Part shown: in pieces, positions 871 to 42,315 of the stretch | Position numbering within the stretch: position 1 is the first letter of the stretch | Layout of the letters: every line of letters starts with the position of its first letter | Virus record (IMG/VR): IMGVR_UViG_3300020183_000016 | Location: 1-64,000 of that record | Source of the DNA: a virus | Length of the DNA: 64,000 nucleotides | Direction: 5' to 3' (one strand) | Translations under genes and position numbers: made by a program | The notes under the pieces: generated by a model | The model's database searches: none | What the model was told of the DNA's origin: nothing | What the model saw: only the letters and a program-made list of their open reading frames with translations

Positions 871-3720
871 ATGGCATCAACAGACAGAATTTTTGTGAGT
901 CCTGGAGTTTTTACTTCAGAAAAAGACTTAACATTTGTAACTAGACAGGTTGGGGTTACTACGTTAGGATTATTAGGTGAAACACCTAAAGGTCCAGCGT
1001 TTGAACCAGTTTTCATATCTAATTACGATGAATTCATTAGTTATTTTGGTGGGTTAAATCCCGAAAAATTCAAAGCTAGTGGGTTCAATAAATATGAATT
1101 AAATTACATTGCAAAATCATTCCTAACACAAACTAATCAATTATACGTTAGTAGAATTTTAGGTTTATCGGGATATAAGGCAGGAAATGCATGGTCAATC
1201 ACATTAGATTCTTCTGCAGATCCTTCTACTACAGGTATTACAAATACTACATCGTATGGTGTTTTAATGACATATTCTGCAACTACTGCGGGATTACCAG
1301 TAACTATTACTTTTAATGACCCTAATTTAACTGCTTTATATAATGATAACCAAATTAATGGATTCTTTTCGAATATAGGGTTATTAAATACAGGTGATAC
1401 AATAAATGTAACTACACCTTATTATGTAAAAACAGGATGTAATTTTAGTGGGGCAACATTTGATTTAGAAGTTATTTCAGAAGGTAATGCATCAGCAGGA
1501 TTTGTAACAGGTACTACAAGTGGTACAGTTGTTAGTTATACGGCTAGTTGTTATACAGATATAGATGGTAGTGTTATCGCTACTTTAAGATCTAGAGGAT
1601 TCTACGATGGATTAGAAAATTTAACATATTATGTAACGGGAGTAACTGATACATTAATGACAAATACTTCCAATTTACCATCAAATGCATTGGCTTCATT
1701 TAATATATCTGGTGTTACATACAATGGAGATAACTTCAATTATGAGGTTTCTATGGACAAAACTAAAAAGAATTTCTTACCTAGAGTATTTGGGCAATCT
1801 ACACAAGATAAAGAGACTGAATTATGGGTTGAGGAGATTTATAATAATGTTTTAGAAGATTTAATTAGTGCTAACAAAGTAAGAGGTTTGGATGTATCAT
1901 TCGTTAACATCGATTATACAATCACAAATAACTTAAATAATTATTTAGAAAGTTGGAAAACTGCTGCATCACCTTGGGTTCTTTCAGAAGTAAAAGGTGT
2001 TGGTGTAGGTTCTACATTACAAAGATTATTTAGATTAGTAACAATATCTGATGGTAATACGGCGAATCAAGACGTTAAATTTTCAATTTTAAATATTCAA
2101 CCAGATAACAAAACTTTTGATTTAATTGTTAGAAAATTTAATGATACAGATGCTAATCCTAGTGTTGTCGAGAAATTCTCTTCACTTTCTATGGATAGTG
2201 CTTCTATTGGATTTATTGCTAGAAAAATTGGTACAACAGATGGTGAATTTCCATTAAGAAGTAAATATATAATGGTAGAATTGTGGGATGGAAATGATCC
2301 AGATTTGGCTAACCATTTTCCAGCAGGTTTTGAGGGTGTTTTAAATAGAACTTATATTGGTTCTAATAGAACTGCTTTACCACCAAAAATCGAATATAAA
2401 ACTAAATATTCTGATTTCAATACATCTAAATTAAGAAAAACATATTTAGGTTTAAATAGTGATATTGGGGTAGATCAAGACTTCTTTGATTATAAAGGTT
2501 TAAATGCAGTTAATGATGGTGTTTATACTGGAAAAACAGATGGTTTCCATTTAGATGTTAATGCTACTAACTCTTTAATAGATTTAGGTGATCAAAGTTA
2601 TATCCCAACATTACAGGTAGGTATTTCAGCTTTTACAACTGACGCATCTTTAATCGGTGGTCCTTATGAAAAAGTGGCAGCAAGAAAATTCACTTTTGCA
2701 CCTTTTGGTGGATGGGATGGTTGGGATGAGTATAGAACTAAAAGAACTAACGGAGATTCTTATACTAAGAATGGGACTAAAGGTTCATTAGGTTTAACTA
2801 AAGGGATATTTAATACATTTATCACCTCTGAAGGTGATGATGGAATTACTTCTGACTATTACGCATATTTAAATGGTATTTATACTTATAATAATCCTGA
2901 AGCGGTAAATATAAATGTATTTGCTACACCAGGTATAGATTTAAGAGACAATATCAGTTTGATTGAAAATGCGGTTGATATGGTTGAAACTGATAGAGCA
3001 GATTCACTTTATATTATTACAACACCTGATGTTGACGTAGATGGTGTAGCATTAACTCCAGGTGAAGCAGTCGATATCATTGAGGATTCTGGAATCGATT
3101 CTAACTATTCTGCCACATATTGGCCTTGGTTACAAATGAATGACACAGAAAACAATAGATACGTATGGTTACCACCAACAGTAGAAGTTGTAAGAAACAT
3201 CGCATTAACTGATAACGTAGCATTCCCTTGGTTCGCAGCGGCAGGTTTAAATAGAGGTACAACTACGGCAATTAAAGCTAGAGTTAAACTTAAATTAGAT
3301 GATAGAGATGATCTTTATGAAGGAAGAATTAATCCTATGGCAACATTCTCAGATGTAGGTGTAGTTATATTTGGTAACAAAACATTACAAGTTAGAGAAA
3401 GTGCTCTTAATAGAATTAATGTTAGAAGATTGTTACTACAGGCTAGAAAACTTATATCGGCAGTTTCTATCAGACTACTATTTGAACAAAATGACGATGT
3501 AGTAAGAAATCAATTCCTAAGTTTAGTTAACCCAATATTAGATAATATTAGAAAAGAAAGAGGTTTAACTGACTTTAGAGTAACATTAGATGATACTCCA
3601 GAATCAATAGATAGAAATGAATTAAATGGTAGAATATTTATTAAACCAACAAGATCTTTAGAATATATTTCGATAGAATTTAATATTACTAACACAGGAG
3701 CAAGTTTTGATGATATTTAA
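871..3720 (+). CDS. Tail sheath protein (gp18-like)
   Basis: The contractile sheath surrounds the tail tube and shortens on infection. The N-terminus (FVSPGVFTSEKDLTF) is the typical sheath opening, followed by the ETPKGPAFEP type segment. The C-terminal 150 residues carry the conserved sheath domain: the WFAAAGLNRG segment, then SALNRINVRRLL, and a last part on residual beta strands (DFRVTLDDTPES, GRIFIKPTRSLEYI). At 949 aa it is clearly longer than T4 gp18 (about 659 aa). The extra length sits in the middle, which is probably surface-exposed. It is the first gene of the rightward tail block and has an A-rich initiation site, as expected of a very abundant protein. Confidence 0.95.
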   Translation: MASTDRIFVSPGVFTSEKDLTFVTRQVGVTTLGLLGETPKGPAFEPVFISNYDEFISYFGGLNPEKFKASGFNKYELNYIAKSFLTQTNQLYVSRILGLSGYKAGNAWSITLDSSADPSTTGITNTTSYGVLMTYSATTAGLPVTITFNDPNLTALYNDNQINGFFSNIGLLNTGDTINVTTPYYVKTGCNFSGATFDLEVISEGNASAGFVTGTTSGTVVSYTASCYTDIDGSVIATLRSRGFYDGLENLTYYVTGVTDTLMTNTSNLPSNALASFNISGVTYNGDNFNYEVSMDKTKKNFLPRVFGQSTQDKETELWVEEIYNNVLEDLISANKVRGLDVSFVNIDYTITNNLNNYLESWKTAASPWVLSEVKGVGVGSTLQRLFRLVTISDGNTANQDVKFSILNIQPDNKTFDLIVRKFNDTDANPSVVEKFSSLSMDSASIGFIARKIGTTDGEFPLRSKYIMVELWDGNDPDLANHFPAGFEGVLNRTYIGSNRTALPPKIEYKTKYSDFNTSKLRKTYLGLNSDIGVDQDFFDYKGLNAVNDGVYTGKTDGFHLDVNATNSLIDLGDQSYIPTLQVGISAFTTDASLIGGPYEKVAARKFTFAPFGGWDGWDEYRTKRTNGDSYTKNGTKGSLGLTKGIFNTFITSEGDDGITSDYYAYLNGIYTYNNPEAVNINVFATPGIDLRDNISLIENAVDMVETDRADSLYIITTPDVDVDGVALTPGEAVDIIEDSGIDSNYSATYWPWLQMNDTENNRYVWLPPTVEVVRNIALTDNVAFPWFAAAGLNRGTTTAIKARVKLKLDDRDDLYEGRINPMATFSDVGVVIFGNKTLQVRESALNRINVRRLLLQARKLISAVSIRLLFEQNDDVVRNQFLSLVNPILDNIRKERGLTDFRVTLDDTPESIDRNELNGRIFIKPTRSLEYISIEFNITNTGASFDDI

Positions 3721-4135: not shown

Positions 4136-4174
4136 TAAAAAAAATTAAAATAAATTATAAAGATGAAAAGAAGA
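4136..4174 (+). repeat. 39-bp direct repeat, copy 1 (leader cassette)
   Basis: This stretch (T, eight A, TTAAAATAAATTATAAAG, then ATG and the next 9 bases) is identical to 4671-4709. It spans the A-rich ribosome-entry region and the first four codons of the gene at 4163. Similarity continues at protein level to residue 23. Confidence 0.85.
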
Positions 4175-4645
4175 TTAGTTAGATTAACTGAGTCAGATTT
4201 GACTCGAATAGTTCGAAGAGTTATCAAAGAAGAAGACGAAACCGCTCAAGCTGATGAAGTGGTGAAAGATGTTGATGTTGCACAATACTGTTCAGCTAAA
4301 GGAGTACCAGGTTGGGTTACAAAAACATTAAACGCTTTACCTGCCGACAAAAAAGAAGAGGCGATAGAGTTTATCAAAAATTTTGGAAATGCAGTTAGTG
4401 GTAAAAGTGTTAAAGAATTAATTAATCTTAGAAGAGAAATTAAACAACAAAAACAAAAAGCAGAATCTGCAGGAGCAATAAATGAAAATTTGGCCCCTAT
4501 AATTATTGCAGGTGTTTCTATTTCTGCAAGTGTATTAATTGCAATCGCAGCGATTTTATTGATAATTATAATATTTTTAATTGTTAAAAAATCAAGTGGA
4601 AAAAAATACGGTTGTGGTGGTCCAGGTTGGTGGAATGATTTATAA
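4163..4645 (+). CDS. Leader-bearing protein with C-terminal membrane segment
   Basis: A 160-aa protein. The leader (residues 1-23, with RLVRLTESDLTRIVRRVIKE) differs from that of the next gene at only a few positions and ends at I21-K22-E23. The middle is a charged helix (about 60-100). A strongly hydrophobic segment spans residues 111-138 and is followed by KKSSGKKYGCGGPGWW, a basic and aromatic tail suited to a membrane interface. Its body is unrelated to the body of its neighbour despite the near-identical start. I cannot assign a function; a membrane-active injected protein is a guess from the hydrophobic tail and leader. Confidence 0.8.
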   Translation: MKRRLVRLTESDLTRIVRRVIKEEDETAQADEVVKDVDVAQYCSAKGVPGWVTKTLNALPADKKEEAIEFIKNFGNAVSGKSVKELINLRREIKQQKQKAESAGAINENLAPIIIAGVSISASVLIAIAAILLIIIIFLIVKKSSGKKYGCGGPGWWNDL

Positions 4646-4670: not shown

Positions 4671-4709
4671 TAAAAAAAATTAAAATAAATTATAAAGATG
4701 AAAAGAAGA
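4671..4709 (+). repeat. 39-bp direct repeat, copy 2 (leader cassette)
   Basis: Identical to 4136-4174, covering the A-rich initiation region and first codons of the gene at 4698. Synonymous and conservative differences begin only after the fourth codon. Confidence 0.85.
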
Positions 4710-5291
4710 GTAGTTAGATTAACTGAATCTGATTTAAGAAGAATAGTTAAAAGAGTAATTAAAGAAGATATGGGTGGCATGGATGATGTACACCCAAGAT
4801 TTGGAAATTTAAATTTATCTGATTATAGTCGAGATGAATTAATGGGTATGAATGACGAAGGGGAATTAAGTAGAGGTGAAGTAATTGAGCTAATTGCTGA
4901 CTTTTTAGAACAAAATGTTTTACCTGAATTAGATCCTACTGAAGTAAGTATTTTACAATCTAAAGTAGATTCTTCTAATGCTAGTAATTTAGCGGAAAGA
5001 TATCTTAGAGAAAATGAAGATTTACCTAGAAATATGGGTGGTAGGAACGCAGAATATATGGAAAAGGCAATGATGGGTGGAGGAGCAGGTTTAGCTTTAA
5101 CAGGTGCAGTATCCGCTTTAGGTTCTTTTATGGGTTGGTCAGAATTTTTGTTAACTCAAAAAATTCATCAGTATGTAGATTCGTTAGGTCTAGGTAACTA
5201 TGCTGGTCCAATATCAGTTGCAATGGTTGCTGCAGGTTTAGCTTTAGTGTTAGGTGGAAGAAACATGAAATACAGAAGAACAGGAATATAA
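4698..5291 (+). CDS. Leader-bearing protein with two hydrophobic segments
   Basis: A 197-aa protein. Residues 1-23 are the leader (VVRLTESDLRRIVKRVIKE) with candidate site I21-K22-E23 before D24. An acidic region follows (about 24-115). Two hydrophobic segments (about 124-147, Gly/Ala-rich, and 170-188) flank a short amphipathic stretch, and the end is basic (KYRRTGI). It is the last of the three small leader genes after the sheath and is directly followed by a hairpin terminator. No family recognised. Confidence 0.8.
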   Translation: MKRRVVRLTESDLRRIVKRVIKEDMGGMDDVHPRFGNLNLSDYSRDELMGMNDEGELSRGEVIELIADFLEQNVLPELDPTEVSILQSKVDSSNASNLAERYLRENEDLPRNMGGRNAEYMEKAMMGGGAGLALTGAVSALGSFMGWSEFLLTQKIHQYVDSLGLGNYAGPISVAMVAAGLALVLGGRNMKYRRTGI

Positions 5292-8905: not shown

Positions 8906-9394
8906 ATGGCTGATTTATTAATGAGAATGCCTGTTCCTTACGAACCACTAAGAAAGAATAGGTTTATTTTGAGATTTCCAGATGAATTGGGGATTCAAGA
9001 ATGGTGGGTATCTACAACTAGCCGACCAAAATATACGAGTTCAGAGGTGGAGATACCTTTTTTAAATACTTCTACATATGTAATAGGTAGATTTAACTGG
9101 GAATCAATCTCTGTGACATTTAGAGATCCAATCGGACCTTCCGCTACACAAGCGTTAATGGAATGGATTCGTTTACACTCTGAATCAGTAACAGGTAGAC
9201 AAGGTTATGCTGCAGGTTACAAAAAAGATGTAGAATTGGAAATGTTGGACCCAACAGGTGTAGTAGTTCAAAAATGGATATTACAAAGTACTCAGTTAAA
9301 TGATGTGGACTTTGGTTCATTAGATTACTCTTCTTCTGATTTGGCAGATATTACGGCAACGCTTCGTTTTGATAGAGCGATTAACGTATTCTAA
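8906..9394 (+). CDS. Tail tube protein (gp19-like)
   Basis: A 162-aa protein, almost the length of T4 gp19 (about 163 aa). It shows the usual pattern: KNRFILRFPDELGI at the N-terminus, the EVEIPFLNTSTYVIGRFNWESISVTF-type beta region (residues about 51-74), a helical loop (ALMEWIRLHSES), and DITATLRFDRAI at the end. It polymerises into the inner tube through which DNA passes. It is a single-gene transcript with a strong A-rich start and a clear terminator behind it, which fits high expression. It lies about 5 kb after the sheath, separated by leader genes and a moron, whereas in T4 genes 18 and 19 adjoin. Confidence 0.93.
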   Translation: MADLLMRMPVPYEPLRKNRFILRFPDELGIQEWWVSTTSRPKYTSSEVEIPFLNTSTYVIGRFNWESISVTFRDPIGPSATQALMEWIRLHSESVTGRQGYAAGYKKDVELEMLDPTGVVVQKWILQSTQLNDVDFGSLDYSSSDLADITATLRFDRAINVF

Positions 9395-9495: not shown

Positions 9496-10599
9496 ATGAG
9501 AAATAGAATTTTAAATTTAAATGAAGAAATAAGAAGAATTAAATCTTTATTTACTGAAGAAAGAATGTATGGAAATCTTAATGAAGATGATCCTGGTTGT
9601 CAATGTGATGATGAAACCAAAGAAAAATATGGTAAATATGATCCACAAACTAATCAATGTGACCCAAAATTATGTGAATCTGATAAAGATGAAGAGGGTG
9701 ATGGTGGTACGACAGATAAAAAAGATGATAAAACCACTATGATACCTAAAGGTTTTGTAGAATTAACAGATGATAAGAAAAAAGAGATAGAGGGTGATGA
9801 GGCAGACTCATTAGATTTTTATGAAACTAAGGATATAAACGGAAAAAAATATATTAAACGAATGTCTTTTGAAAAAATCAAAATGAAAGTTGGTTATGTT
9901 GATAAACCTAAACCAGGTAGAGATTTAGACTATGTAAAAAGATTTATCAAAGATGATAAAGGTGTACCTGTTGAAATTTTTATAAGTAAAGATGCAGAAT
10001 TGAACTTTTTATCTAAAAAAGAAGGGAAGGGTATAAGAAAAGATATTAAACAAGATGTTAAAAATGATAAAGACGTAATAGATGATAATATAGATAGTTG
10101 TAAAGAACATCTTAAAGCAATGTATAAAGCATGGTTAAAAGGTGCTGGTCCTGGTGATTTAGAAGAATATGGATTTGAGACTGACGCTTATAAATCAGTA
10201 GAAAGATGTATGGCTAATTTTTATAATCGATTTGAGAAGAATGAAGATATTCTAAGAATGGTTAGAGAATTACAAGATACAAATGATGATGAAGGTAATC
10301 CTTTAATAGGTGATTATAAAACAGGTGAAGGTAAAGTATCTAAAGGAGTTGAGGGGGAGAAATATATAGTTAAAAATGATAGGGGTACTAAATTAGGGGT
10401 AATTAAAAAAATAACTGGAAATCAATATAAATTTAATGGGGTAAGAGGTATGACATTCATACAGAAAAAAGGTGATAGACTTATATTTAGAAATAATATT
10501 TTAACACAAATATTTAAAACTCTTAATTTAGATGTCGATAAAAATAAAATTTCTATTATGAAAGGTGATGAAAATAATTGCATATTTAGAGTTCAATAA
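9496..10599 (+). CDS. Leader-bearing protein of unknown function
   Basis: A 367-aa protein. The leader (residues 1-30) contains LNEEIRRIKSLFTEERMYGN and ends L28-N29-E30. The same motif recurs inside the next protein. Residues 34-59 are cysteine-rich (five Cys, with a CQC pair), followed by a Gly/Asp/Lys-rich linker. The remainder is charged and mixed alpha/beta without a domain I can name. There are two more cysteines around 199 and 236 (SCKEHLKAMYKAWLKG and ERCMANFYNRF). A near-copy of ATATTTATA (9456-9464, last base T) precedes it. It begins a run of three large leader genes spaced only 2-3 bases apart, so they are probably co-translated. Confidence 0.75.
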   Translation: MRNRILNLNEEIRRIKSLFTEERMYGNLNEDDPGCQCDDETKEKYGKYDPQTNQCDPKLCESDKDEEGDGGTTDKKDDKTTMIPKGFVELTDDKKKEIEGDEADSLDFYETKDINGKKYIKRMSFEKIKMKVGYVDKPKPGRDLDYVKRFIKDDKGVPVEIFISKDAELNFLSKKEGKGIRKDIKQDVKNDKDVIDDNIDSCKEHLKAMYKAWLKGAGPGDLEEYGFETDAYKSVERCMANFYNRFEKNEDILRMVRELQDTNDDEGNPLIGDYKTGEGKVSKGVEGEKYIVKNDRGTKLGVIKKITGNQYKFNGVRGMTFIQKKGDRLIFRNNILTQIFKTLNLDVDKNKISIMKGDENNCIFRVQ

Positions 10600-10602
10600 A
10601 TA

Positions 10603-13600
10603 ATGAAAAAAAAAATTTTTATAACTGAAAATCAGTATAAAAGGATTTTTTTAAATGAAAGTGATCCACCAAAGTATACTGTCAAACAAATAGGATATAC
10701 TCCTGTGTGGAATAAGCATTTATTATTATATACACATCCAGCTTATTATGACTATTTAGATGTTCCTAAAGGTTTGTGCTGGAAAAAAAATTCTGACGGT
10801 ACATGGAGTTATGTGTATAGTGATGTACAAATTGCATTATTAGCTAGTCAAGGTAAGAAAACTACTGCCAGTGTAGAAGATAAAGATATTGCAAAAAAAA
10901 GGATTGATGCGGAAAATGAAAAATTTTTTAAACAAAATATAAAAAGTAAAAAAGATTCTGACGCATTTAGATTATGGGTTAATGATCCTGATTTTCCTCA
11001 AAGAATTAAAGATGTAAATAAAGCATTAAAAAGTAATGGTTTACCTGGTACATTAGATAAAACTAGTAACGCACCATATGATAACAAATATATGAAAGTT
11101 GCCTTTAATAAATTAGGTAGATTTTATGTTTTGGATGTCATTGGGATGGAACAAAAGAAAAAAAAGGGATATAATGAGTATGGTACAGAATACGTAAACC
11201 AAAGTCGTATATATAAAGATTATTTAGAAACATTAAAATCTTGGGATTCTTCAAATAAAACATTTGGGTGGACTAACCCTAAAACTGTCAATTCTGATAA
11301 AATACAACAAATATTAGAAGGTAAGGTATCATCATCAACATGTATTAACCCATCTTATATATTGAGATCGATGGAAGAATTAGAGGTTAAGATGTATCAA
11401 TCAATACGTGAATATAATACACAAATTGATCCTCAAGCAATTATGGGTAGATTAGGATTTGATACTGAAATGCAAAATATCTATCCGAAAACAAATAATA
11501 AAAAAGAAAAAGAATTTAACATTTTATCTAAAATGGAAAAAGAAAATCCAGAAATGGCGAAACTGTTAAATTCTTTCCAAAAAGATGTCCCTTCAGTAGA
11601 AAAAGAAATATTACAAAAAGCTGGTCCTAAATTCAAAGAATACTTAGAAGATTATAACACATATAAGATAGTGTTAGATCAAATTGAGTTACATAATATT
11701 ATTATTAGAAATAATACTCCCGAAAAATTAAATAATGCATGTTCAGATCCAGTTTATTATGTGAAAACATATTCTGTACCTGTATCGGCACCAGGATCAG
11801 GTGGCGGAGGTGCTAAAATTAATGAAACTTTTACTTGGAAACAAGCGTGTTCTAAAAATGGTGGGATATTTATGTACCCATCACAATCTGAAGAAGTGGA
11901 AGGTGGTGTAAAAAGAAAAGGATTTATTGGTGGTAGGGCTATTTGTTGTTGTGTTAACCCAAAAGGGAATGCTAATGTAACGGTAAAAGGTGCGGAAGGA
12001 AATTATCAAGCTACTATTAATATAGAAGAATGGTGTGGTAAAAGTACTGGTAACGTTCTAAGTGGGTGGGATAGATTTGATCAATGGACACAAGATTGTG
12101 CTGAAGATTGGCATTGTATTGCAGACATTGCCTCTATCGTAGTTTTGGCAATTGGTCCTTATGGTATTTTAATTAGTGGTATAATTGATGCAATAAGTGC
12201 GGCTGGTTATGTGATAGAGGGTAAAGAAGGATGGAAATTAAATGCAGGATTAACTATGTTAGGTGCATTTGGTGGTTTAGCAGAAGCAGGGAAATTATTA
12301 AAATATGGTTCTAAATTTACAGGTAGATTAGAAGAATTAACCAAAGCTTTAAAAATGGTAGATGGTGACCCAATTAAAAGTAGACAAATTTTAAGAGATT
12401 TTGCAAGAACTTTATCTCCTGATGAAGCTAAACAATTTAAGAATTTTGGTAAGGTTGCTAATAGTGATGAAATAATTAATAAATTTGGTAAAGGTGGTGA
12501 ATTTACAAATGAATATAATAAATTAGATAAAATGCAAAAAGGTGTTTTTGCAGAAATGTTAAAGAAAGAAACACCCGCTAATTTAGAAAAATTATATACT
12601 AAGTCAAATAAAAATTTAAGTAAAATGGTTAATGCTTACAATAAAGGTATTAAACAAGTTATTATACAAGGATCTTTATTTGCTGGTATGTATGTTTATA
12701 GTGAAGAATTAGGTAAAGCGTTAAAAGCTCTTTATGATAAAACTGGTTTTGATCCATTAGGCGTTTTTACTTCTAACGGTGAGATAGATAACTCTAAACT
12801 TAGTCCAGATTTTACTAATATCATTTCTAATGAAGAAAAAATAGATAGTTTATTTTCTCAGTTATCTAAGAGTGGGTTTATAGATAAGAAAAATTTTAAA
12901 GAAGAAACTGATTTATTAGTAAATTTTTATCTTAATATCCAACAAATTATAAAATTACCTAACAAATCTTTAGAAGCGGCAGCTTTATTACTAAATAAAG
13001 AAGTGGCTTTTCAGATAAATGGTAAAAGATATAAACATAAAGATATAAAAGAGGTAATAGATTTAGTTAATCCAATTTTAGAAGGTATATTAAATAAAAC
13101 TTATACAGAACAGGAAGGTATTAATTTAATTAATGATAAAATAGTTGTTTTAAAAACTATGACAAAACCTAATATTAAACCAATAGTTAAAACTGCGGTA
13201 TTAGTTACAGGGGATACTGAATTGACGGATGAACAAATAGACGAATTTCAAAATATGTTAATGACAGGTGAAGGAAATCAAGTTCCAAAAAAAATAGATG
13301 AGGGTATGAAAAAATTAAATGAAGAAATAAAAAGAATGAAATCATTATTTTCAGACGAAAGATTATATGGAAATTTAGTTAACGAAGTATGTGATAATGA
13401 ATCTGAAGCAATTAATTTTTTAAAGGATAAAGGTTATATTGTTAGACAAAGTAATGAAGGAGATTTATGTTTGGGTCCAAATACTCAAATAGGTAAGATT
13501 TACAACAAATACAGATCAAATACACAATTATCATTTCAATCTGGAACATCACCTGACGGTTGTTATTTAGGTATATATAGAAAAGATAAAACTAGTAGAG

Positions 13601-14097
13601 AAAATCACTTTTTTTTAGTGAATCTTTTTGAACAAGGTTTAAATGAAAATAATAGATTTAATATGTATTATATGTTAAATGATAATGATGCATGTGAAAA
13701 AGATATTACGATAGGTTCTTCTAATTTTAAAATGATAATAACTAAAGACGGTTATGATAGTGCAACAAAAGAGTTTGGTATGGGGTTAAGGTTAATAAAA
13801 ATAGAAGGTTTTTGGAATGAGTCTTCAGGTGTAATAAATTTAACTAGTGGTTTAATAGTTAGACTTATGGATAAAGATAAAAAGGCGATTAAAACTAATT
13901 TAAAATTAGGGGTAATAGACGCAGATCTTTCTTCTTTATTAGGTTTAAATAGTGAAAATGGTGGGACAGCTGAATCATTAAAAGATTCCTCAAATGAATG
14001 TACAACAATATTAGAATTTGTTGAAGAGAAATTAGGTTCATCTTTAAATGGACCAATAAATTTAGATGATTTAATAAAAAATAAAATTACGTTATAG
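10603..14097 (+). CDS. Large leader-bearing protein with an internal second leader
   Basis: A 1164-aa protein. Residues 1-19 form the first leader, ending L17-N18-E19. Around 121-175 is a segment (FRLWVNDPDFP, then NKYMKVAFNKLG) that resembles a short domain I recall from other phage virion proteins. Residues about 506-565 are hydrophobic and Gly/Ala-rich (IVVLAIGPYGILISGIID), like membrane-inserting or pre-toxin regions. At 902-928 an internal segment (MKKLNEEIKRMKSLFSDERL, then YGNLVNE) matches the leader of the preceding gene at most positions. It is followed by a new domain of about 235 residues. The chain thus looks like two leader proteins joined. Function unknown. Confidence 0.75.
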   Translation: MKKKIFITENQYKRIFLNESDPPKYTVKQIGYTPVWNKHLLLYTHPAYYDYLDVPKGLCWKKNSDGTWSYVYSDVQIALLASQGKKTTASVEDKDIAKKRIDAENEKFFKQNIKSKKDSDAFRLWVNDPDFPQRIKDVNKALKSNGLPGTLDKTSNAPYDNKYMKVAFNKLGRFYVLDVIGMEQKKKKGYNEYGTEYVNQSRIYKDYLETLKSWDSSNKTFGWTNPKTVNSDKIQQILEGKVSSSTCINPSYILRSMEELEVKMYQSIREYNTQIDPQAIMGRLGFDTEMQNIYPKTNNKKEKEFNILSKMEKENPEMAKLLNSFQKDVPSVEKEILQKAGPKFKEYLEDYNTYKIVLDQIELHNIIIRNNTPEKLNNACSDPVYYVKTYSVPVSAPGSGGGGAKINETFTWKQACSKNGGIFMYPSQSEEVEGGVKRKGFIGGRAICCCVNPKGNANVTVKGAEGNYQATINIEEWCGKSTGNVLSGWDRFDQWTQDCAEDWHCIADIASIVVLAIGPYGILISGIIDAISAAGYVIEGKEGWKLNAGLTMLGAFGGLAEAGKLLKYGSKFTGRLEELTKALKMVDGDPIKSRQILRDFARTLSPDEAKQFKNFGKVANSDEIINKFGKGGEFTNEYNKLDKMQKGVFAEMLKKETPANLEKLYTKSNKNLSKMVNAYNKGIKQVIIQGSLFAGMYVYSEELGKALKALYDKTGFDPLGVFTSNGEIDNSKLSPDFTNIISNEEKIDSLFSQLSKSGFIDKKNFKEETDLLVNFYLNIQQIIKLPNKSLEAAALLLNKEVAFQINGKRYKHKDIKEVIDLVNPILEGILNKTYTEQEGINLINDKIVVLKTMTKPNIKPIVKTAVLVTGDTELTDEQIDEFQNMLMTGEGNQVPKKIDEGMKKLNEEIKRMKSLFSDERLYGNLVNEVCDNESEAINFLKDKGYIVRQSNEGDLCLGPNTQIGKIYNKYRSNTQLSFQSGTSPDGCYLGIYRKDKTSRENHFFLVNLFEQGLNENNRFNMYYMLNDNDACEKDITIGSSNFKMIITKDGYDSATKEFGMGLRLIKIEGFWNESSGVINLTSGLIVRLMDKDKKAIKTNLKLGVIDADLSSLLGLNSENGGTAESLKDSSNECTTILEFVEEKLGSSLNGPINLDDLIKNKITL
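13306..13386 (+). other. Internal copy of an N-terminal leader
   Basis: Codons 902-928 of the surrounding gene begin with ATG and match the leader of the gene at 9496 at about 18 of 23 positions, with clear DNA similarity (for example TTAAATGAAGAAATAA in both). An internal translation start or a proteolytic site could release the C-terminal domain. Confidence 0.75.
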
Positions 14098-16482: not shown

Positions 16483-17256
16483 ATGATAGAAAATGAATTA
16501 AGTCCTGATTTTATTCCTGAAGAATATAGGACACCTTATGATATTATAGAATTACCTTCACAAGGAATTTTATATAAGAATAATAAGAAATCTGTTAAGG
16601 TTGAATATTTGACTGCGATGGATGAGACTATTCTAACATCACCTAACATTTCTAATGGTGGTAAAATAATAGATATTTTAATTAAAAGAAAAGTAAAGGA
16701 TTTAGGTTTTGATTCATCGGATTTACTTATTGGAGATAGAACCGCTTTAATGATTTTTTTAAGAGTAACTGCATTTGGTGAAGAATACACTCAATTGGTA
16801 TTTAATTCGAAATCTGGTGAGTTTGAGGAAGGGGTAATTAATTTATCGTCACTACAACAAAAAAAATTAACTATAAGACCAGATGAAAATGGTGAGTTTG
16901 AATTTTTATTACCTAAATCAAATAAAAAAGTTACTTTTTCTCTTTTAACAGGTAAAGATGAAGAAATAATAGACATTAGAGAAAAAGAAGATTTAAAAAG
17001 AAATCCTGATGGGGTATCAAATAAATTAATTTTTACTTTAGAACAACAAATTAAATCTATTGATGGTGAAAGGGATAAAATAAAAATTTCTAATATATTA
17101 AAAAAAATCCCTATTATTGATTCTAGATCATTAAGGAAATACATTGAAGAGGTAAATCCTGGATTAGATTTTAAAACTACCGCTAGGACTCAGGGGGGAG
17201 AGTCCGTAGATACCTTTCTTAGATTCAACACGACTTTTTTCTGGCCTGAACTCTGA
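16483..17256 (+). CDS. Tail assembly chaperone, gp26/gp51-like (zero-frame product)
   Basis: A 257-aa protein with the pattern of the T4 gp26/gp51 baseplate family: IIELPSQGILY near the start, EYLTAMDETILTSPN, then GDRTALMIFLRVTAFGEEY. Members are not part of the finished tail; they help hub and tape measure assembly. The frame ends at CTC-TGA (17251-17256) right after FFWPEL, within a region that in relatives continues. The expected continuation (EYLLYLHKEINFLVRVGGYT) is present in the +1 frame up to 17392. T4 has genes 26 and 51 as neighbours near the tape measure, and here too the tape measure is two genes downstream. Confidence 0.85.
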   Translation: MIENELSPDFIPEEYRTPYDIIELPSQGILYKNNKKSVKVEYLTAMDETILTSPNISNGGKIIDILIKRKVKDLGFDSSDLLIGDRTALMIFLRVTAFGEEYTQLVFNSKSGEFEEGVINLSSLQQKKLTIRPDENGEFEFLLPKSNKKVTFSLLTGKDEEIIDIREKEDLKRNPDGVSNKLIFTLEQQIKSIDGERDKIKISNILKKIPIIDSRSLRKYIEEVNPGLDFKTTARTQGGESVDTFLRFNTTFFWPEL

Positions 17257-17392
17257 ATATCTTCTTTATCTTCATAAAGAAATCAATTTTTTAGTTAGAG
17301 TTGGTGGTTATACATATTCAGATATTATGATTATGCCCACTTTTTCTAGAAAAATAATGATTAAACAAAATATTTCAAACAAAGAAAAATAA
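17210..17392 (+). CDS. +1-frame extension of the gp26/gp51-like chaperone
   Basis: This frame is open from 17210 (after a TAG at 17207-17209) to TAA at 17390-17392 and has no usable start of its own. From 17255 it encodes 45 residues ending the family domain, including GGYTYSDIMIMPTFSRK. A shift at CTC-TGA would give a 302-aa fusion reading FFWPEL-EYLLYLHKE. I see this as a frameshift-made long form; a one-base sequencing error in the nearby run of six T (17235-17240) is the alternative. Confidence 0.7.
   Translation: MPFLDSTRLFSGLNSEYLLYLHKEINFLVRVGGYTYSDIMIMPTFSRKIMIKQNISNKEK
17251..17257 (+). promoter_or_regulatory. Candidate programmed +1 frameshift site CTC-TGA-A
   Basis: A CTN codon followed by TGA is the arrangement used in bacterial prfB +1 frameshifting (CTT-TGA-C). 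The peptidyl-tRNA on CTC can re-pair on TCT. A second possible slip is TTT-TTC at 17235-17240. The G-rich AGGGGGG at 17192-17198 is too far upstream to act like the prfB Shine-Dalgarno stimulator. Confidence 0.5.
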
Positions 17393-17435: not shown

Positions 17436-18587
17436 ATGTTATATAAAAAAAACGGAAAAATTTTAGACATACTATATTTAATGTCTGAGTCTATTGATAA
17501 TCTTTTAGGTGAAGGTATAATTGTTACACCAGATTCTAATGGAGAAGTCAAAACAAAAAAACAAAAGTTTACGGTAGTTGAAGATGATCAATTACCTCCT
17601 AACACTGATACTGAATTTTATATTGAATTAAAAGATGCTAAAGAATATAAAAGTGACGTAAAAGTAGGTGATGAAATAGAAATAGAGGTGGTTGATATGG
17701 AATCTATGACTGATGATGGACTTTTAGATTTTTTATCTAGTGATGAAATAAGTGCAGAAGATTTAGAAAAAATTGTATTAGCTAGGGGGACAACTATAAG
17801 AGTTGCTGGGAAAGTATTAAAATATGGTCCTAGACAAATAAGTAGAATTAAAAAAGTTGCTAGTGCGGCATTACAAATGAAAAAATATGCCGAAAGATAT
17901 GGAAAAAAAGTAGAACATAGTAGATGTTATTGTTTAACAATATTTGATGATAATGTAGAAGAGGATAGTGGTAAAGCGGATATAAATGTATATAAAGCCT
18001 CAATTGCTGATCAACCAGAACAAATTCAAGAAGATTTATTATCTACTTGGGATTATTGTGAAAATAAATATGGTAAATATATAATTGAGAAAGATGATAG
18101 GGATAAAACCTCTTTATCTTGTTCACAATTAGAAGATTGGTATGAGGATGCAGAAAGTTTAATAGATGATATGATTAGTGATTTACAACAATTTTATAAA
18201 ATAAAAGGTTATAATAAAGAAACCGAAAAGTATAAAGATTATTCAAGTAATAAATCTGTTGGTGAAAAAATAGTTCTTCACGATTACATGTTAATTAAGT
18301 TTAATGGTGATGTAACATATAGTCCTGGTGGTGGTGGATCTACTACAACATTATATAATGATGATCAGGTTGTAAAATTTGAAATATTAAAAACTTATGG
18401 AGAAAGAGGTGATACAGTTTTAGTACAAAAAGAAGGTACAACTAATAGATATATTATGGGGTTTGACACTGAAAAGGTAAAAAAAGCACAAGGAAACAAC
18501 GCTTTTTGGGTTGTTAACGCTGACGGTTCTATTAGTAATATTAAAACTGTTTGGAGTGGTAAAATATTAGAATATATAGATAATTAA
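17436..18587 (+). CDS. Leader-bearing protein between chaperone and tape measure
   Basis: A 383-aa protein. The N-terminus (MLYKKNGKILDILYLMSESI) fits the leader group and ends L24-G25-E26 before G27. An ATG at codon 16 is an alternative start. The body is very acidic, with a helical middle containing a CYC pair near 170 and a C-terminal third of mixed strands with a Gly-rich loop (SPGGGGST). No family recognised. It ends 1 base before the tape measure start, suggesting coupled translation and perhaps a role in tail assembly rather than as cargo. Confidence 0.7.
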   Translation: MLYKKNGKILDILYLMSESIDNLLGEGIIVTPDSNGEVKTKKQKFTVVEDDQLPPNTDTEFYIELKDAKEYKSDVKVGDEIEIEVVDMESMTDDGLLDFLSSDEISAEDLEKIVLARGTTIRVAGKVLKYGPRQISRIKKVASAALQMKKYAERYGKKVEHSRCYCLTIFDDNVEEDSGKADINVYKASIADQPEQIQEDLLSTWDYCENKYGKYIIEKDDRDKTSLSCSQLEDWYEDAESLIDDMISDLQQFYKIKGYNKETEKYKDYSSNKSVGEKIVLHDYMLIKFNGDVTYSPGGGGSTTTLYNDDQVVKFEILKTYGERGDTVLVQKEGTTNRYIMGFDTEKVKKAQGNNAFWVVNADGSISNIKTVWSGKILEYIDN

Positions 18588-18588
18588 A

Positions 18589-20661
18589 ATGGGAGGAGAT
18601 AAGGGTAAAGATTTACAACAACAATTAGAAAAATTAGTTGATCAATTAAAAGTGTTCGCTAAAGATTCAGATATTTCTTCAGAAGCAGATAGAGAAGAAA
18701 TAAAAAAATACGAAGAAGAAATAAAAAAACTTGAGAAGACAAGAGAACTACTCATTGAAAAAGGAGAAATTATTAAGGAGGAAGAAAAAGTTACTGCTAA
18801 ATTAGTAAAACAATCAAAAGAACTTTTAGGGAATCTTAAAAATATAAATACCGCAACTGGTTATATGTATAACCAAATCGCTGCCGCTGGTAATGATTTT
18901 AGAGAGTTTTTAACCAATTCAAAAAAACAATATGAATATGCCGAAAAAATGGCTGAAGTATACAAAAAAATTGGTGTGGATATAGGTATGACTGGAAAAG
19001 GTGCTAAATTCATGGAAAATAGTTTTAAAGGTGCTATGCCAGCAATTGCAGAAATGGGTATGGAAGCATCTTCATTATCTACAATATTCACAGAAATAAG
19101 TGAAGCCACAGGTAGAATGAGTAATTTAACTAGTGAAGACGCTATTAGAATTGCTTCTTTAACCGAAGCTATGGATATGCAATCTAATGAAGCTGCTCAA
19201 ATGGCGGATAGTTTTTCGTTAATGGGTTTGTCTACTGAACAAATGGAAAAAAATGTTTTAGAAACTTATAAATCTGCACAATCTATGGGTTTAAATGCTA
19301 CTAAAGTAATAAAAGAATTACAAAGTAATATGAAAACAATGTCAACATTTTCTTTTAAAAATGGTGTCAAAGGAATGACTGAAATGGCAAAACAGGCAGT
19401 TAAAATGAGAATGGATATGGCAGGTATGCTACAACTAGCAGATAAATTATATCAACCAGATGCTGCTATAGAGACTGCAGCTCAATTACAACTTTTAGGT
19501 GGTGATATTGCAGAAGCTTTTGGTGATCCGTTTACTTTAATGTATGAGGCTAGAAACAAACCCGAAGAATTGGCAAAAAGAATTTCTAAAATGACTGAAA
19601 ATATGCTTCAATTTAATGAAGAAACTGGTGAATATGAATTACCAGCAGAAGCTAGAATGCAATTTCAGGCATTAGATCAACAATTGAATTTAGGGGTGGA
19701 TAATATGATTGAAATGTCCAGACAAGCAGCTAAGATTGGGGACATAAAAATGAAATTTACATCGGTAGGTGATGATGAAATGAAAGAGAGTTTGGCTTCA
19801 ATAGCTAAATTTAAAGATGGTAAATTTGTTATAGAAACTGAAGAATTTGGTGATTTGGGTTTAGATCAAATTACTGATGATATGGCAGAAACTATTATGA
19901 AAGAACAACAAACATCTGAAGAAAGTCTTAGAGATATTGCAACACATACTAAAAAAATGTCTGATCAAGTTGATAATATGAGAGAGGGTGGGAAGTATAA
20001 AGTCGCTGGTTTAACAAATATATATGAATTAACTGCAGATGAAATTGCACCTGTTTTACAAAACATGAAAGATGGGGTTGGTAAGTTATCAGATACTTTT
20101 ATAGATAATAGTAAATCTTTCATCGATGATATGTTTAAAAATTCTGGAGATGAAAAAAGTGTTATAGATGATGCTATGACTGAAATGGATAATTTAAAAA
20201 ATCAAATTAAAGATAAAGTTATAACAACTTTTGGTGATTTAGTAATTAGTAGTAAGAAACTTGAAGAGACTTTTCATGCAATAGGTGGTGGTTCAGGAAA
20301 AGGAAATACTGGTGGTGCGGATCCATATCATGGGGATTTTATGTTAAGATCTTCAGGAGAAATTACAAGTTTTTCTAACGAAGATGATATTATTGGTGCA
20401 AAAAAAGGTGGACCTTTAGATAAATTAATGGATAAAAGTTTAACAATACCCGAAACCACTTCAATGACTTCAAAAATAGAATTTGGTAAAATAGATATAT
20501 CAGGAAAAATAGAAATAACTTCACCAGATGGGTCTTCTAAAAATATCGATATGGAATCTATAAAACCACAAATAGTAAAAACTATAATTTCACATTTAAA
20601 TGGTACATTTAGGAATGGCGGAGTACCTTCAAGTAAAGAAACAACTGATTATATGGGATAA
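18589..20661 (+). CDS. Tape measure protein (gp29-like)
   Basis: A 690-aa protein, a little longer than T4 gp29 (about 590 aa). It begins with a coiled coil of about 85 residues (KGKDLQQQLEKLVDQLKVFA), then a long Ala/Met-rich helical region with regularly spaced small residues (NEAAQMADSFSLMGLSTEQM), typical of proteins that thread the tail lumen. The C-terminal part has a Gly-rich linker (AIGGGSGKGNTGGADPYHGD) and a short beta region. It fixes tail length and is ejected ahead of DNA. The position after the gp26/gp51-like chaperone and before the tube-cap-like gene supports the call. Confidence 0.8.
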   Translation: MGGDKGKDLQQQLEKLVDQLKVFAKDSDISSEADREEIKKYEEEIKKLEKTRELLIEKGEIIKEEEKVTAKLVKQSKELLGNLKNINTATGYMYNQIAAAGNDFREFLTNSKKQYEYAEKMAEVYKKIGVDIGMTGKGAKFMENSFKGAMPAIAEMGMEASSLSTIFTEISEATGRMSNLTSEDAIRIASLTEAMDMQSNEAAQMADSFSLMGLSTEQMEKNVLETYKSAQSMGLNATKVIKELQSNMKTMSTFSFKNGVKGMTEMAKQAVKMRMDMAGMLQLADKLYQPDAAIETAAQLQLLGGDIAEAFGDPFTLMYEARNKPEELAKRISKMTENMLQFNEETGEYELPAEARMQFQALDQQLNLGVDNMIEMSRQAAKIGDIKMKFTSVGDDEMKESLASIAKFKDGKFVIETEEFGDLGLDQITDDMAETIMKEQQTSEESLRDIATHTKKMSDQVDNMREGGKYKVAGLTNIYELTADEIAPVLQNMKDGVGKLSDTFIDNSKSFIDDMFKNSGDEKSVIDDAMTEMDNLKNQIKDKVITTFGDLVISSKKLEETFHAIGGGSGKGNTGGADPYHGDFMLRSSGEITSFSNEDDIIGAKKGGPLDKLMDKSLTIPETTSMTSKIEFGKIDISGKIEITSPDGSSKNIDMESIKPQIVKTIISHLNGTFRNGGVPSSKETTDYMG

Positions 20662-31742: not shown

Positions 31743-32459
31743 ATGAATAAAAATAGACTTATTTCTGAAGATTTAAAAAGGTATAAACAACTTTTAGAAT
31801 ATACTTTTTATGTGCCAGAAGAAAAAGAAAAAGATTTAAATGGAGATTTATTATTAGATGATTCTTTTTTAACTGAACAAGATCCTGCAGGTGACGATCC
31901 TTTTATGGATGTCGCAGATGACGAAGGCGGACAAGCACCAACTACTGGTGACACTGAAACTACTACAGATGACGAAGGTGGACAAGCACCAACTACTGGT
32001 GACACTGAAACTACAACAGGTGCTGAGGAAGTTGAAATAGAAGATGAATTTGCGGATGAAGGTGATGATACTATTGAAGTTGATGTAACAGATATTGTAG
32101 ATAATACTGAAGAAACAAAAAAATCTGTAGATAATGTAAGTAATAAAATGGAGGATTTACTTGCCAAATTATCAGAGTTAGAACAACAAGTTAGTGGTAT
32201 GGATAAAGTTATTGATAAGATAGATTCGTTAGAAAAGGAAATAGAAAAGAGAAATCCTACACCTGTTGAAAGATTAGAACTTAGATCTATGGACTCTTTT
32301 CCATATAGTGTAAAATTAACTGATTTTTGGAAAGATAAAGATGGTTACGATGTAGAAGGTGAAGAAGAAAATGAATATGTTTTAAGACAAAGTGATGTCG
32401 ATAATTTTGATAGGAATCAAATAAAGGCATCGTTTAATTATTCAGAAAAAAAAGATTAA
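31743..32459 (+). CDS. Acidic leader-bearing protein with tandem repeat and coiled coil
   Basis: A 238-aa protein. The start (MNKNRLISEDLKRYKQLLEY) is leader-like, and the first (I/L)xE that fits the pattern is L43-T44-E45 before Q46, later than in the other members. Residues 59-92 are two copies of a 17-residue Asp/Glu/Thr-rich repeat. A coiled coil follows (about 130-175, KMEDLLAKLSELEQQVSGMD), then a compact end (VERLELRSMDSFPYSVKL). Highly acidic composition plus coiled coil recalls scaffold or core proteins, but that is only an analogy. It closes the rightward block before the replication module, with a terminator behind it. Confidence 0.7.
   Translation: MNKNRLISEDLKRYKQLLEYTFYVPEEKEKDLNGDLLLDDSFLTEQDPAGDDPFMDVADDEGGQAPTTGDTETTTDDEGGQAPTTGDTETTTGAEEVEIEDEFADEGDDTIEVDVTDIVDNTEETKKSVDNVSNKMEDLLAKLSELEQQVSGMDKVIDKIDSLEKEIEKRNPTPVERLELRSMDSFPYSVKLTDFWKDKDGYDVEGEEENEYVLRQSDVDNFDRNQIKASFNYSEKKD
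31917..32018 (+). repeat. Two tandem 51-bp units inside an acidic protein
   Basis: Units 31917-31967 and 31968-32018 encode the same 17 residues (DDEGGQAPTTGDTETTT) and differ at only a few third codon positions, pointing to a recent duplication. Confidence 0.9.
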
Positions 32460-40410: not shown

Positions 40411-42315
40411 ATGAGGAATTTATTTGAGGAATTACAAAGGATGAAAAATTTGATGGTGTATGATAAGGGTTCATACATTATGGAAGTGAGTACCTCATCA
40501 CAACCCAATATAAATAAGAGTAGTGATAAACCTGCAACAGATAAACCTGCAGCAGATAAACCTGAACAAAATCAAGATACTAAATCATCATCAGAAGGTG
40601 GTCAAAAAACTGCAGATAAAAATGATTGTTTTTTTGTGAAAGCTACGGGAAGATTTGTGGTAGATGTCCCTACAGGATCAAAAGCAGTAGAAAATTTTAT
40701 AATAGAACTTAGAAAAGTTGTTAGTGCCAATCCTGAATACCAAGAAGCATTGGATAGTGGTACAATGTATATAAGAGATATTACGTTACAAGGTTTTGCT
40801 AGTAATTTTTATGGTGGACCTGTAGAACCCCAATTTGATAATGACTATTGTAAAAAATGGGAAATACCTCCAGATAGGAAATATGGTGGTGTTTGTACAC
40901 AATTTGAATTTAAACCTTTTAGTGGTAAAAAATTACCTAAATCCCAATATAAAGGTGATCAAGCCACCAATCAAAAATTGGCTAGAAAAAGGGCAGAGAA
41001 TTTATTTGCCGTAATTAAAGAAACTTTAGAAAAACATGGAAAAACTTATGGTATAAAATTAGATCCAACCACCGAACCTAAATATATTGAGGGGGGTAGT
41101 TTATATACTAAAGATAATGTTGATGAGTATTGGAGGACGTTAATCGCTACAGGAAAACTTAATCCTGGACAAATAGTTGCGGTAACCGCAAATGTGTGTT
41201 ATACTCTTAAAGAACCTTGTCCTGATCCTTGTATGGAAAAAGATGATTCTGGTAATTGTAAATGTCCTGAAGGTATGACATATAACGAAGAAACTAAACA
41301 ATGTGAATGTCCTCCTGAACAAATTAAAGAAGGTTGTTTATGTAAAACCAAAGAAAAAGAACCTTGTCCTGATTGTATGGAAAGGTTAGAAGAGGACGGA
41401 GAATGTGAATGTAAAAAAGGGTTATATAAAGTAGACGGTAAATGTTTTTGTGATAAGGCAGGTAAGAAATCTCCTGATGAAAATTGTGAGTGTGGTTGCC
41501 CTAAATGTATGAAACGTGATGAAAATGGTGAATGTAAATGTCCTGATGGGATGACATATAATGAAAAAACTGAAAAATGTGATTGTCCAGAAGGTAAAAT
41601 AAAACCAACAGAGGATGCGTGTAATTGTATTACACCTAAACCCCCAATAAAATGTAATCAAGAGTATAAAAAAGAAGGTGCTAGAGGAACAAAACAAAAT
41701 AATTTTGTTGCGGCAACAGTTAAAAGTAGTTTTCCTGCTGGTGCTGGTGATGTTATAACAATCGCATTTGATTCATTAGTAGTTCCTGACGCATTTTATG
41801 TTAGATATGGAGATCAAGAATTCTTTAGTGGATTTATGGGGGATGTTTATAATACAGAATATAGACAAATTGCGCTAAGTATTCCAGAAAGAAAAAAAAT
41901 GTTACCGTTACAATCAAAAACAACAAAAGAAAAGATTAAAAAATCTTTAGCTGATGGTGATAACGATTATAGTCAAATGGAAAACATTGTAAGAAATTTT
42001 GTTGGTGAATTAATAATCTATAAACGTGAAGATGGTTTATTAGAAAGTATTAATGCGGCGATTAAATCTGAGGGTGGTAAGTTAAACGTAAAAGATATAT
42101 TTAAAAATGGTGATGCTGAAGCGGAAAAAATAACCGATGACATAATAAATTCAGGAAGTATTGCGGATAACATAGGTAGATATGGTTCTATAATGAAATC
42201 AGGTGCTTCTTTTAAAATTAATAAAGAAACAGAAAATCTTGAATTAATAGTATTGGCATTTTCCCCACTAGATAGAACAATATTCAATATGCAAATTAAA
42301 TGTAGTCAAGAATAA
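40411..42315 (+). CDS. Leader-bearing protein with OmpA-like and EGF-like cysteine-rich parts
   Basis: A 634-aa protein. Residues 1-25 are the leader, ending I23-M24-E25. A low-complexity linker with DKPA/DKPE repeats follows (about 37-55). Residues about 85-290 resemble an OmpA-like domain (DITLQGFASNFYGG, then NQKLARKRAENLFAVIKETL). Residues about 270-405 contain three cysteine-rich repeats of about 42-45 residues built on CPxxCM, GxCxCPxGMxYN, CxCP and a final CxC, similar in spacing to EGF-like modules. The C-terminal 220 residues have a beta-rich domain (SFPAGAGDVITIAFDSLVVP). Binding to cell wall or surface would fit, but is inference. It starts the second tail block. Confidence 0.7.
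   Translation: MRNLFEELQRMKNLMVYDKGSYIMEVSTSSQPNINKSSDKPATDKPAADKPEQNQDTKSSSEGGQKTADKNDCFFVKATGRFVVDVPTGSKAVENFIIELRKVVSANPEYQEALDSGTMYIRDITLQGFASNFYGGPVEPQFDNDYCKKWEIPPDRKYGGVCTQFEFKPFSGKKLPKSQYKGDQATNQKLARKRAENLFAVIKETLEKHGKTYGIKLDPTTEPKYIEGGSLYTKDNVDEYWRTLIATGKLNPGQIVAVTANVCYTLKEPCPDPCMEKDDSGNCKCPEGMTYNEETKQCECPPEQIKEGCLCKTKEKEPCPDCMERLEEDGECECKKGLYKVDGKCFCDKAGKKSPDENCECGCPKCMKRDENGECKCPDGMTYNEKTEKCDCPEGKIKPTEDACNCITPKPPIKCNQEYKKEGARGTKQNNFVAATVKSSFPAGAGDVITIAFDSLVVPDAFYVRYGDQEFFSGFMGDVYNTEYRQIALSIPERKKMLPLQSKTTKEKIKKSLADGDNDYSQMENIVRNFVGELIIYKREDGLLESINAAIKSEGGKLNVKDIFKNGDAEAEKITDDIINSGSIADNIGRYGSIMKSGASFKINKETENLELIVLAFSPLDRTIFNMQIKCSQE

Follow-up and report, generated by a model that had tools for sequence, protein, structure and literature searches.

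The putative tail chaperone gene and its two reading frames

The window (the whole stretch of DNA analysed here, 64,000 nucleotides of a 125,740-base record from a large environmental phage of T4-like type) carries a gp26-like putative tail chaperone gene with tail sheath and tail tube genes upstream of it, other genes lying between, and a candidate tape measure gene that gave no match in the profile search (Table 1). In frame 0, the chaperone gene ends with T-T-F-F-W-P-E-L, encoded by ACT TTT TTC TGG CCT GAA CTC TGA, where CTC TGA occupies positions 17251-17256 and a run of six T occupies 17235-17240. Between a TAG at 17207-17209 and the closing TAA, the +1 frame contains no stop codon (17210-17389) and reads ...GLNSEYLLYLHKEINFLVRVGGYTYSDIMIMPTFSRKIMIKQN. 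Re-reading of frame 0 and of the +1 frame confirmed the coordinates originally given for both. Gene callers lose the C-terminal domain encoded in the +1 frame or label it a stray ORF.

The gene occurs once in the window's own record and in each of the other large records with a profile match, with the exception of one weak second fragment, and no separate gp51 gene was seen in any of these records, which may be incomplete. In the isolates immuto, SP-15, LIS04 and, broadly, Mel-JY01, the gene is found between the tail tube and tape measure genes.

Table 1. Features of the chaperone locus and its surroundings in the window
Feature	Position	Strand	Remarks
Tail sheath protein (context)	871..3720	+	phrog_23, 2e-60
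Tail tube protein (context)	8906..9394	+	phrog_4542, 1e-25
Frame-0 ORF, short product, gp26-like tail/tape-measure chaperone	16483..17256	+	257 aa; phrog_150 match
Hairpin GGACTC-AGGGGGGA-GAGTCC, inside the coding sequence	17186..17205	+	6 bp, 8-base G-rich loop
TTT CTT AG	17215..17222	+	Either another possible +1-slippable codon (UUU_CUU) or a component of a 5' signal
Proposed shift site UUU_UUC	17236..17241	+	P-site UUU 17236-17238 to UUU 17237-17239; next codon UCU 17240-17242
+1 extension, gp51-like C-terminal domain, 50 codons	17240..17389	+	Long product 302 aa; stop 17390-17392
Double-coded stretch CCT GAA CTC	17245..17253	+	P-E-L in frame 0, L-N-S in +1
Frame-0 stop TGA, end of short product	17254..17256	+	TGA, TAA or TAG in relatives
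Candidate tape measure protein	18589..20661	+	Position and composition only

Several other features of the window were noted. An N-terminal motif (such as LTESDLTRIVRRVIKE / ITENQYKRIFLNE / LNEEIRRIKSLF) is shared by the proteins encoded at 4163-4645, 4698-5291, 9496-10599, 10603-14097, 31743-32459 and 40411-42315, and may serve all of them for targeting or as a propeptide signal; the motif of the protein at 9496 reappears within the protein at 10603. The protein encoded directly downstream of the chaperone gene (17436-18587), in the tail region, has a Pfam NusA_N match of 1e-5, just above the cut-off, and a minus-strand ORF near the window end (62991-63587) contains a tandem repeat array of LQRENNLLMQLLNT units. 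No tRNA genes were found in the window and no phage-encoded ribosomal protein S21 in the whole record.

Conservation of the frame relation

Relatives were collected by a scan of IMG/VR (35 relatives, 27-100% identity) and by an alignment-based scan that contributed 80 more from 571 candidates; 106 gp26-like loci were kept, some of the relatives being fragments. The extension lies in the +1 frame at 101 of these loci and in the -1 frame at four (L095, L111, L129 and L141), and is cut off early at one. The 101 loci that keep the extension support the original prediction that a tail chaperone of the gp26/gp51 type is apparently subject to programmed +1 frameshifting. Relatives whose gene is unbroken and lacks CTC-TGA had been named as evidence against it; none of the 106 loci is unbroken, and CTC-TGA is missing from many. 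An alignment with relatives, which had been proposed as a check, keeps the frame relation down to 26% identity.

At least 40 open +1 codons follow the frame-0 stop in 100 of the 104 relatives with enough DNA, which is beyond chance, since the chance of so many open codons is only 0.04 per locus in first-order Markov sequences; these counts overstate independence, as the loci share ancestry and neither the Markov nor the shuffle controls model phylogeny. Within the 28 loci of the window's clade, the extension protein conforms to the pattern [YF][ST]YSD[IL]..MPT..R apart from a small number of deviations. Over 8,771 bases, the window sequence recurs unchanged in L001 and L002, two contigs that come from different metagenomes. 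The +1 layout is also present in isolates, namely Flavobacterium phage immuto, Microcystis phage Mel-JY01, the 484-kb phage LR756508, Rhodothermus phage RM378, Bacillus phage SP-15, Listeria phage LIS04 and Streptococcus phage SagM-GXN1, with Xanthomonas phiXF1 as a weak case. SPO1 gave no match in the profile comparison.

Position of the proposed shift site

At the F-F position, which in the window lies five codons before CTC, all +1 loci carry a [UC]UU codon with a pyrimidine after it. The usual context in the +1 loci is UUU UUU UGG CCU, and the window has UUU_UUC UGG CCU (17236-17247). The seven-T form, TTT TTT TGG, is found in 62 of the 106 loci, and CUU_U stands before UGG in L035, L097, L114 and L143. 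Where the permitted interval is strict, at 8-12 codons, [UC]UU_Y is in most loci the only slippable codon or one of two. Where a +1 stop is near on the upstream side, it is mostly TTT_TTT or TTT_TGG alone that can re-pair, and at L102, L110 and L133 TTT_TGG is the sole slippable codon left. The only loci without any +1-slippable codon are L111, L129 and L141, whose F-F codons are TTC TTC. The extension is in the -1 frame at all three, as it is at L095, where the tract reads TTT TTT TTC; judged by their sequences, these four loci are a natural direction switch inside one family.

The pattern of synonymous variation points to the same place. Over the 74 wider loci, this variation is about as expected until one codon before the tract and then drops; the second tract codon is TTT or CTT in all 74, and CCT encodes 67 of the 70 prolines that follow. 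In the window's clade, CCT is identical in 28 of 28 members and GAA and CTC are strongly constrained, CTC having a frequency of only 0.2 per 1000 codons here, while codons 248-250, which separate UUU_CUU from the U tract, are unconstrained. The conservation of CCT is explained by double coding, as it specifies Pro in frame 0 and Leu in +1. Because [UC]UU_Y is universal among the +1 loci whereas the last frame-0 codon and its stop vary, because slippable codons are limited and because the constraint starts there, we place the site at the U tract rather than at CTC-TGA. The presence of UUU-Y by itself carries little weight, TTT being the common Phe codon (87% here; site versus rest, p = 0.014). 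Between the two candidate sites of the window's clade, the sequence evidence makes UUU_UUC the likely one over the upstream UUU_CUU. A downstream stem or pseudoknot was sought with alifold over +0..+60, and nothing of note is conserved on the 3' side.

An upstream hairpin and the UUUCUU element

The window's clade has a hairpin upstream of the tract, with GGRGG in the loop in nearly all relatives. Across 30 distinct sequences, 92% of cells are paired, versus 28-61% with the partner slid; 12 two-sided changes occur, and none of 500 shuffles matches either the covariation score or the percentage paired. The arm variants GGACTC/GAGTCC, CGACTC/GAGTCG, GGACGC/GCGTCC and GGATTC/GAATCC all keep the pairing. 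The codons of the hairpin are rare in the window's genome, and in the clade a second zone of constraint extends over 17186-17222. This zone includes the TTT CTT element nine bases past the hairpin, which is identical in 28 of 28 clade members (expected same-codon fractions 0.71 for TTT and 0.54 for CTT, CTT making up about 10% of Leu codons here). In four loci (L077, L086, L088 and L089) a U7 tract accompanies the hairpin/TTTCTT module, and the wider relatives have the tract only.

In the window's clade, G-rich loops lie around -42, and in 20 of the 74 wider loci GGAGG starts 31 bases before the tract; predicted anti-Shine-Dalgarno binding in the wider loci is -7.4 kcal/mol, stronger than the -5.3 (sd 0.25) of synonymous shuffles. 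Almost none of the 28 window genes checked has a Shine-Dalgarno sequence upstream of its start, as in phages of Bacteroidota, so a role of the G-rich element in initiation is unlikely. A Shine-Dalgarno-driven shift signal was considered for this element and rejected, the distance being unsuited and the window's genes being without Shine-Dalgarno sequences. We infer that the hairpin and UUUCUU perhaps stimulate the shift.

Alternative explanations

The original prediction had placed the shift at CTC-TGA, as a prfB-type site; the slow stop codon would prompt it there. In prfB, the A-site stop codon stimulates the +1 shift (CUU-UGA, with the Shine-Dalgarno-like AGGGGG three bases upstream). The +1 site of Listeria PSA, CCC-UGA, also has a stop in the A site (PMC5009743), and CTC is an extremely rare codon here. 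Among relatives, however, codon and stop vary freely, with GCC-TGA, GTA-TAA, GAG-TGA, ATC-TAA or AAG-TAA in the same place and the frame relation unchanged; GAA-TGA, AAG-TAA, GAG-TGA and GTA-TAA are unable to re-pair, a slip of CTC to UCU was rejected for its poor re-pairing, and the constraint on CCT and GAA begins ahead of the CTC codon. The prfB motif was likewise set aside, as the codon here is CTC, the stop is variable and the G-rich element lies about 52 bases before CTC, in the hairpin loop. This part of the prediction did not hold, and a shift at CTC-TGA is highly improbable. A better candidate, although still an unlikely one, is a hairpin-aided shift in the window's clade at the invariant UUU_CUU (17215-17220), which would make the U tract an ancestral relic. 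Its complete conservation in the clade, the re-pairing of UUU with UUC and the fixed distance of 9 bases to the hairpin would all be accounted for, but identity is mostly low (0.12-0.58) among the +1 residues that separate the two sites, frame-0 codons 248-250 show no extra synonymous constraint, the module coexists with an intact U7 in the four loci named above, and the wider relatives have only the tract. A Ty1-like CUU-AGA site was also rejected at this position, since the codon after CTT is ACG, ACA or AAC in L025, L075 and L024 and the later +1 residues are poorly conserved.

Routes to the same frame that do not involve a +1 slip have also to be considered. As +1 and -2 are the same frame and seven T are so frequent at these loci, the extension might also be reached if the polymerase slipped in the T run or the ribosome shifted by -2. 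For polymerase slippage, however, the runs at the TTTATTTTGG, TTTCTTTGG, TTTTTATGG and TTTCTATGG loci are interrupted or not long enough. At TTA_TTT_TGG, a -2 slip would bring tRNA-Phe onto UAU, a mismatch, whereas a +1 slip re-pairs in all; since TTATTTTGG, TTTCTTTGG and TTTTTATGG serve equally, both routes are very unlikely. It would be more surprising still if the extension were a small gene in its own right that overlaps the gp26-like gene and is translated from its own start. Small downstream ORFs were indeed called in the annotations of immuto and Mel-JY01, and some ATG, GTG or TTG occurs in the +1 frame at 70 of the 101 loci. At 31 of the 101, however, no such codon is present as far as 5 codons beyond the frame-0 stop (no ATG at 68), and in the window the first +1 start comes 24 codons beyond that stop and would give 21 aa; the separate gene is unlikely because the window has no start codon ahead of the domain, and it would leave unexplained why double coding sets in precisely with the U tract. 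The homopolymer at this spot might also raise the suspicion of an assembly or sequencing error, or of a decayed gene. The identical contigs come from two other metagenomes, and the frame relation is kept to 26% identity with different bases; on these sequences an error is excluded, and decay has next to no probability.

Family match, fold and proposed mechanism

The short form matches phrog_150 ('baseplate hub') at 1.1e-6 over profile positions 11-233 of 282. Fusion of the +1 extension improves the match to 6.3e-10 and carries it to position 273, so that the prediction that the +1 frame encodes the end of the family domain is supported. The same profile covers T4 gp26 (positions 10-236) and gp51 (3-281), in agreement with the earlier suggestion that T4 splits the equivalent function over genes 26 and 51, and the part beyond position ~236 belongs to the long (gp51) form only. 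Since the fusion moves the end of the match from 233 to 273, the short form is, by this profile, the counterpart of T4 gp26 and the long form that of gp51; the link to T4 rests on phrog_150, direct profile comparison with single T4 sequences being too weak. PF12322 (T4_baseplate) is reached by the relatives L038 (4e-15) and L076 (9e-8) and not by the window protein itself.

The short form was folded with AlphaFold (pLDDT 88), and a search of BFVD with this model found baseplate hub (assembly) proteins of the T4 type, for example that of SP-15 (TM 0.79-0.83, E 1e-17). A PDB fold search with the short form found nothing significant, the HK97 tail assembly chaperone 2ob9 appearing weakly (prob 0.35), and single-sequence structure prediction of the fusion was not usable (pLDDT 32).

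Taken from the sequences, it is probable that this gp26/gp51-family gene makes two proteins from one start by a +1 slip at the U tract. Most ribosomes would halt at the TGA at 17254 and release the short gp26-like chaperone. In a minority, tRNA-Phe on the P-site UUU would move forward by one base, after which UCU-GGC-CUG-AAC would be read and the long protein with its gp51-like C-terminal domain produced. The lambda G/GT pair suggests, by analogy, that the short form may coat the tape measure protein, while tail-tube subunits may be recruited by the domain that the long form has in addition; the protein would thus be a tape measure chaperone with an optional tube-recruiting domain.

Changes in the direction of the proposed shift

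The C-terminal part is found in the -1 frame, behind an FF-like motif, in the cyanophages Syn9 (L053) and P-SSM2 (L055), Pelagibacter phage HTVC008M (L056), Kuttervirus SH19 (L057) and Vibrio phage KVP40 (L058). In P-SSM2 and Syn9, the -1 extension is accompanied by a T TTT TTC heptamer. These sequences make a -1 programmed frameshift likely in the gp26 genes of cyanophages and some T4-like phages. A broader reading, which we offer tentatively and consider rather doubtful as a whole, is that the hairpin with its GGRGG loop and UUUCUU form a new 5' stimulator of +1 shifting, refolding behind the ribosome and favouring a forward slip in a phage without Shine-Dalgarno use, and that the gp26/gp51 pair is encoded in three ways (+1, -1 and two genes), the shift being ancestral.

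Comparison with known systems

Frameshifts in lambda G/GT and related tail assembly chaperones were reportedly described by Xu, Hendrix and Duda in 2004. No report of a gp26/gp51 frameshift was found in the open-access literature, subscription papers lying outside this coverage. As in lambda G/GT, a short and an apparently frameshift-extended chaperone overlap, conserved in overlapping frames (101 of 106 loci in +1, 4 in -1), and the gene, in the isolates, is near the tube and tape measure genes. Lambda, however, shifts by -1 and the window apparently by +1, and the window protein belongs to the gp26/gp51 family; the lambda-type -1 slippery heptamer X XXY YYZ does not apply to the window, whose extension is +1. 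The direction is shared with prfB, and so is CUU_U in the four loci noted above, but here there is neither an A-site stop nor a Shine-Dalgarno sequence three bases upstream.

The haloarchaeal myoviruses of the HF1 group and HSTV-2 also have a proposed +1 shift between the tail tube and tape measure genes: in HSTV-2 it is considered very likely (PMC5009743), and for HF1-like haloviruses it was proposed at TTT-CGC in a 2020 paper (PMC7230728). Their hosts are Archaea. TTT-CGN, resembling the halovirus site, occurs in L084, L087, L090, L091 and SagM-GXN1. Influenza A PA-X arises by a +1 shift at UCC_UUU_CGU through P-site slippage, for which a slow A-site codon has been proposed (PMC3498833). There, as suggested here, tRNA-Phe in the P site moves from UUU onto a UUY that overlaps it, and UUU_Y is found in the +1 loci (CUU_U in L035). 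In PA-X the ribosome is eukaryotic; in the phage loci most A-site codons are UGG, that of the window being UUC. The loci described here provide a large natural series of +1 sites, together with an upstream RNA element that covaries, in phages that make no use of Shine-Dalgarno sequences.

A review describes G-T frameshifting as a conserved trait of all long-tailed phages 'except T4' (PMC5009743), which makes T4 the named exception to the general rule of a short and a frameshift-extended tail chaperone. The baseplate hub assembly proteins gp26 and gp51 of T4 share phrog_150 with the window protein, but they are the products of two separate genes, whereas here there is one gene with a frame change. 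Our analysis suggests that the rule holds for T4's relatives, whose lineages differ in shift direction, and that T4 itself holds both forms as genes 26 and 51.
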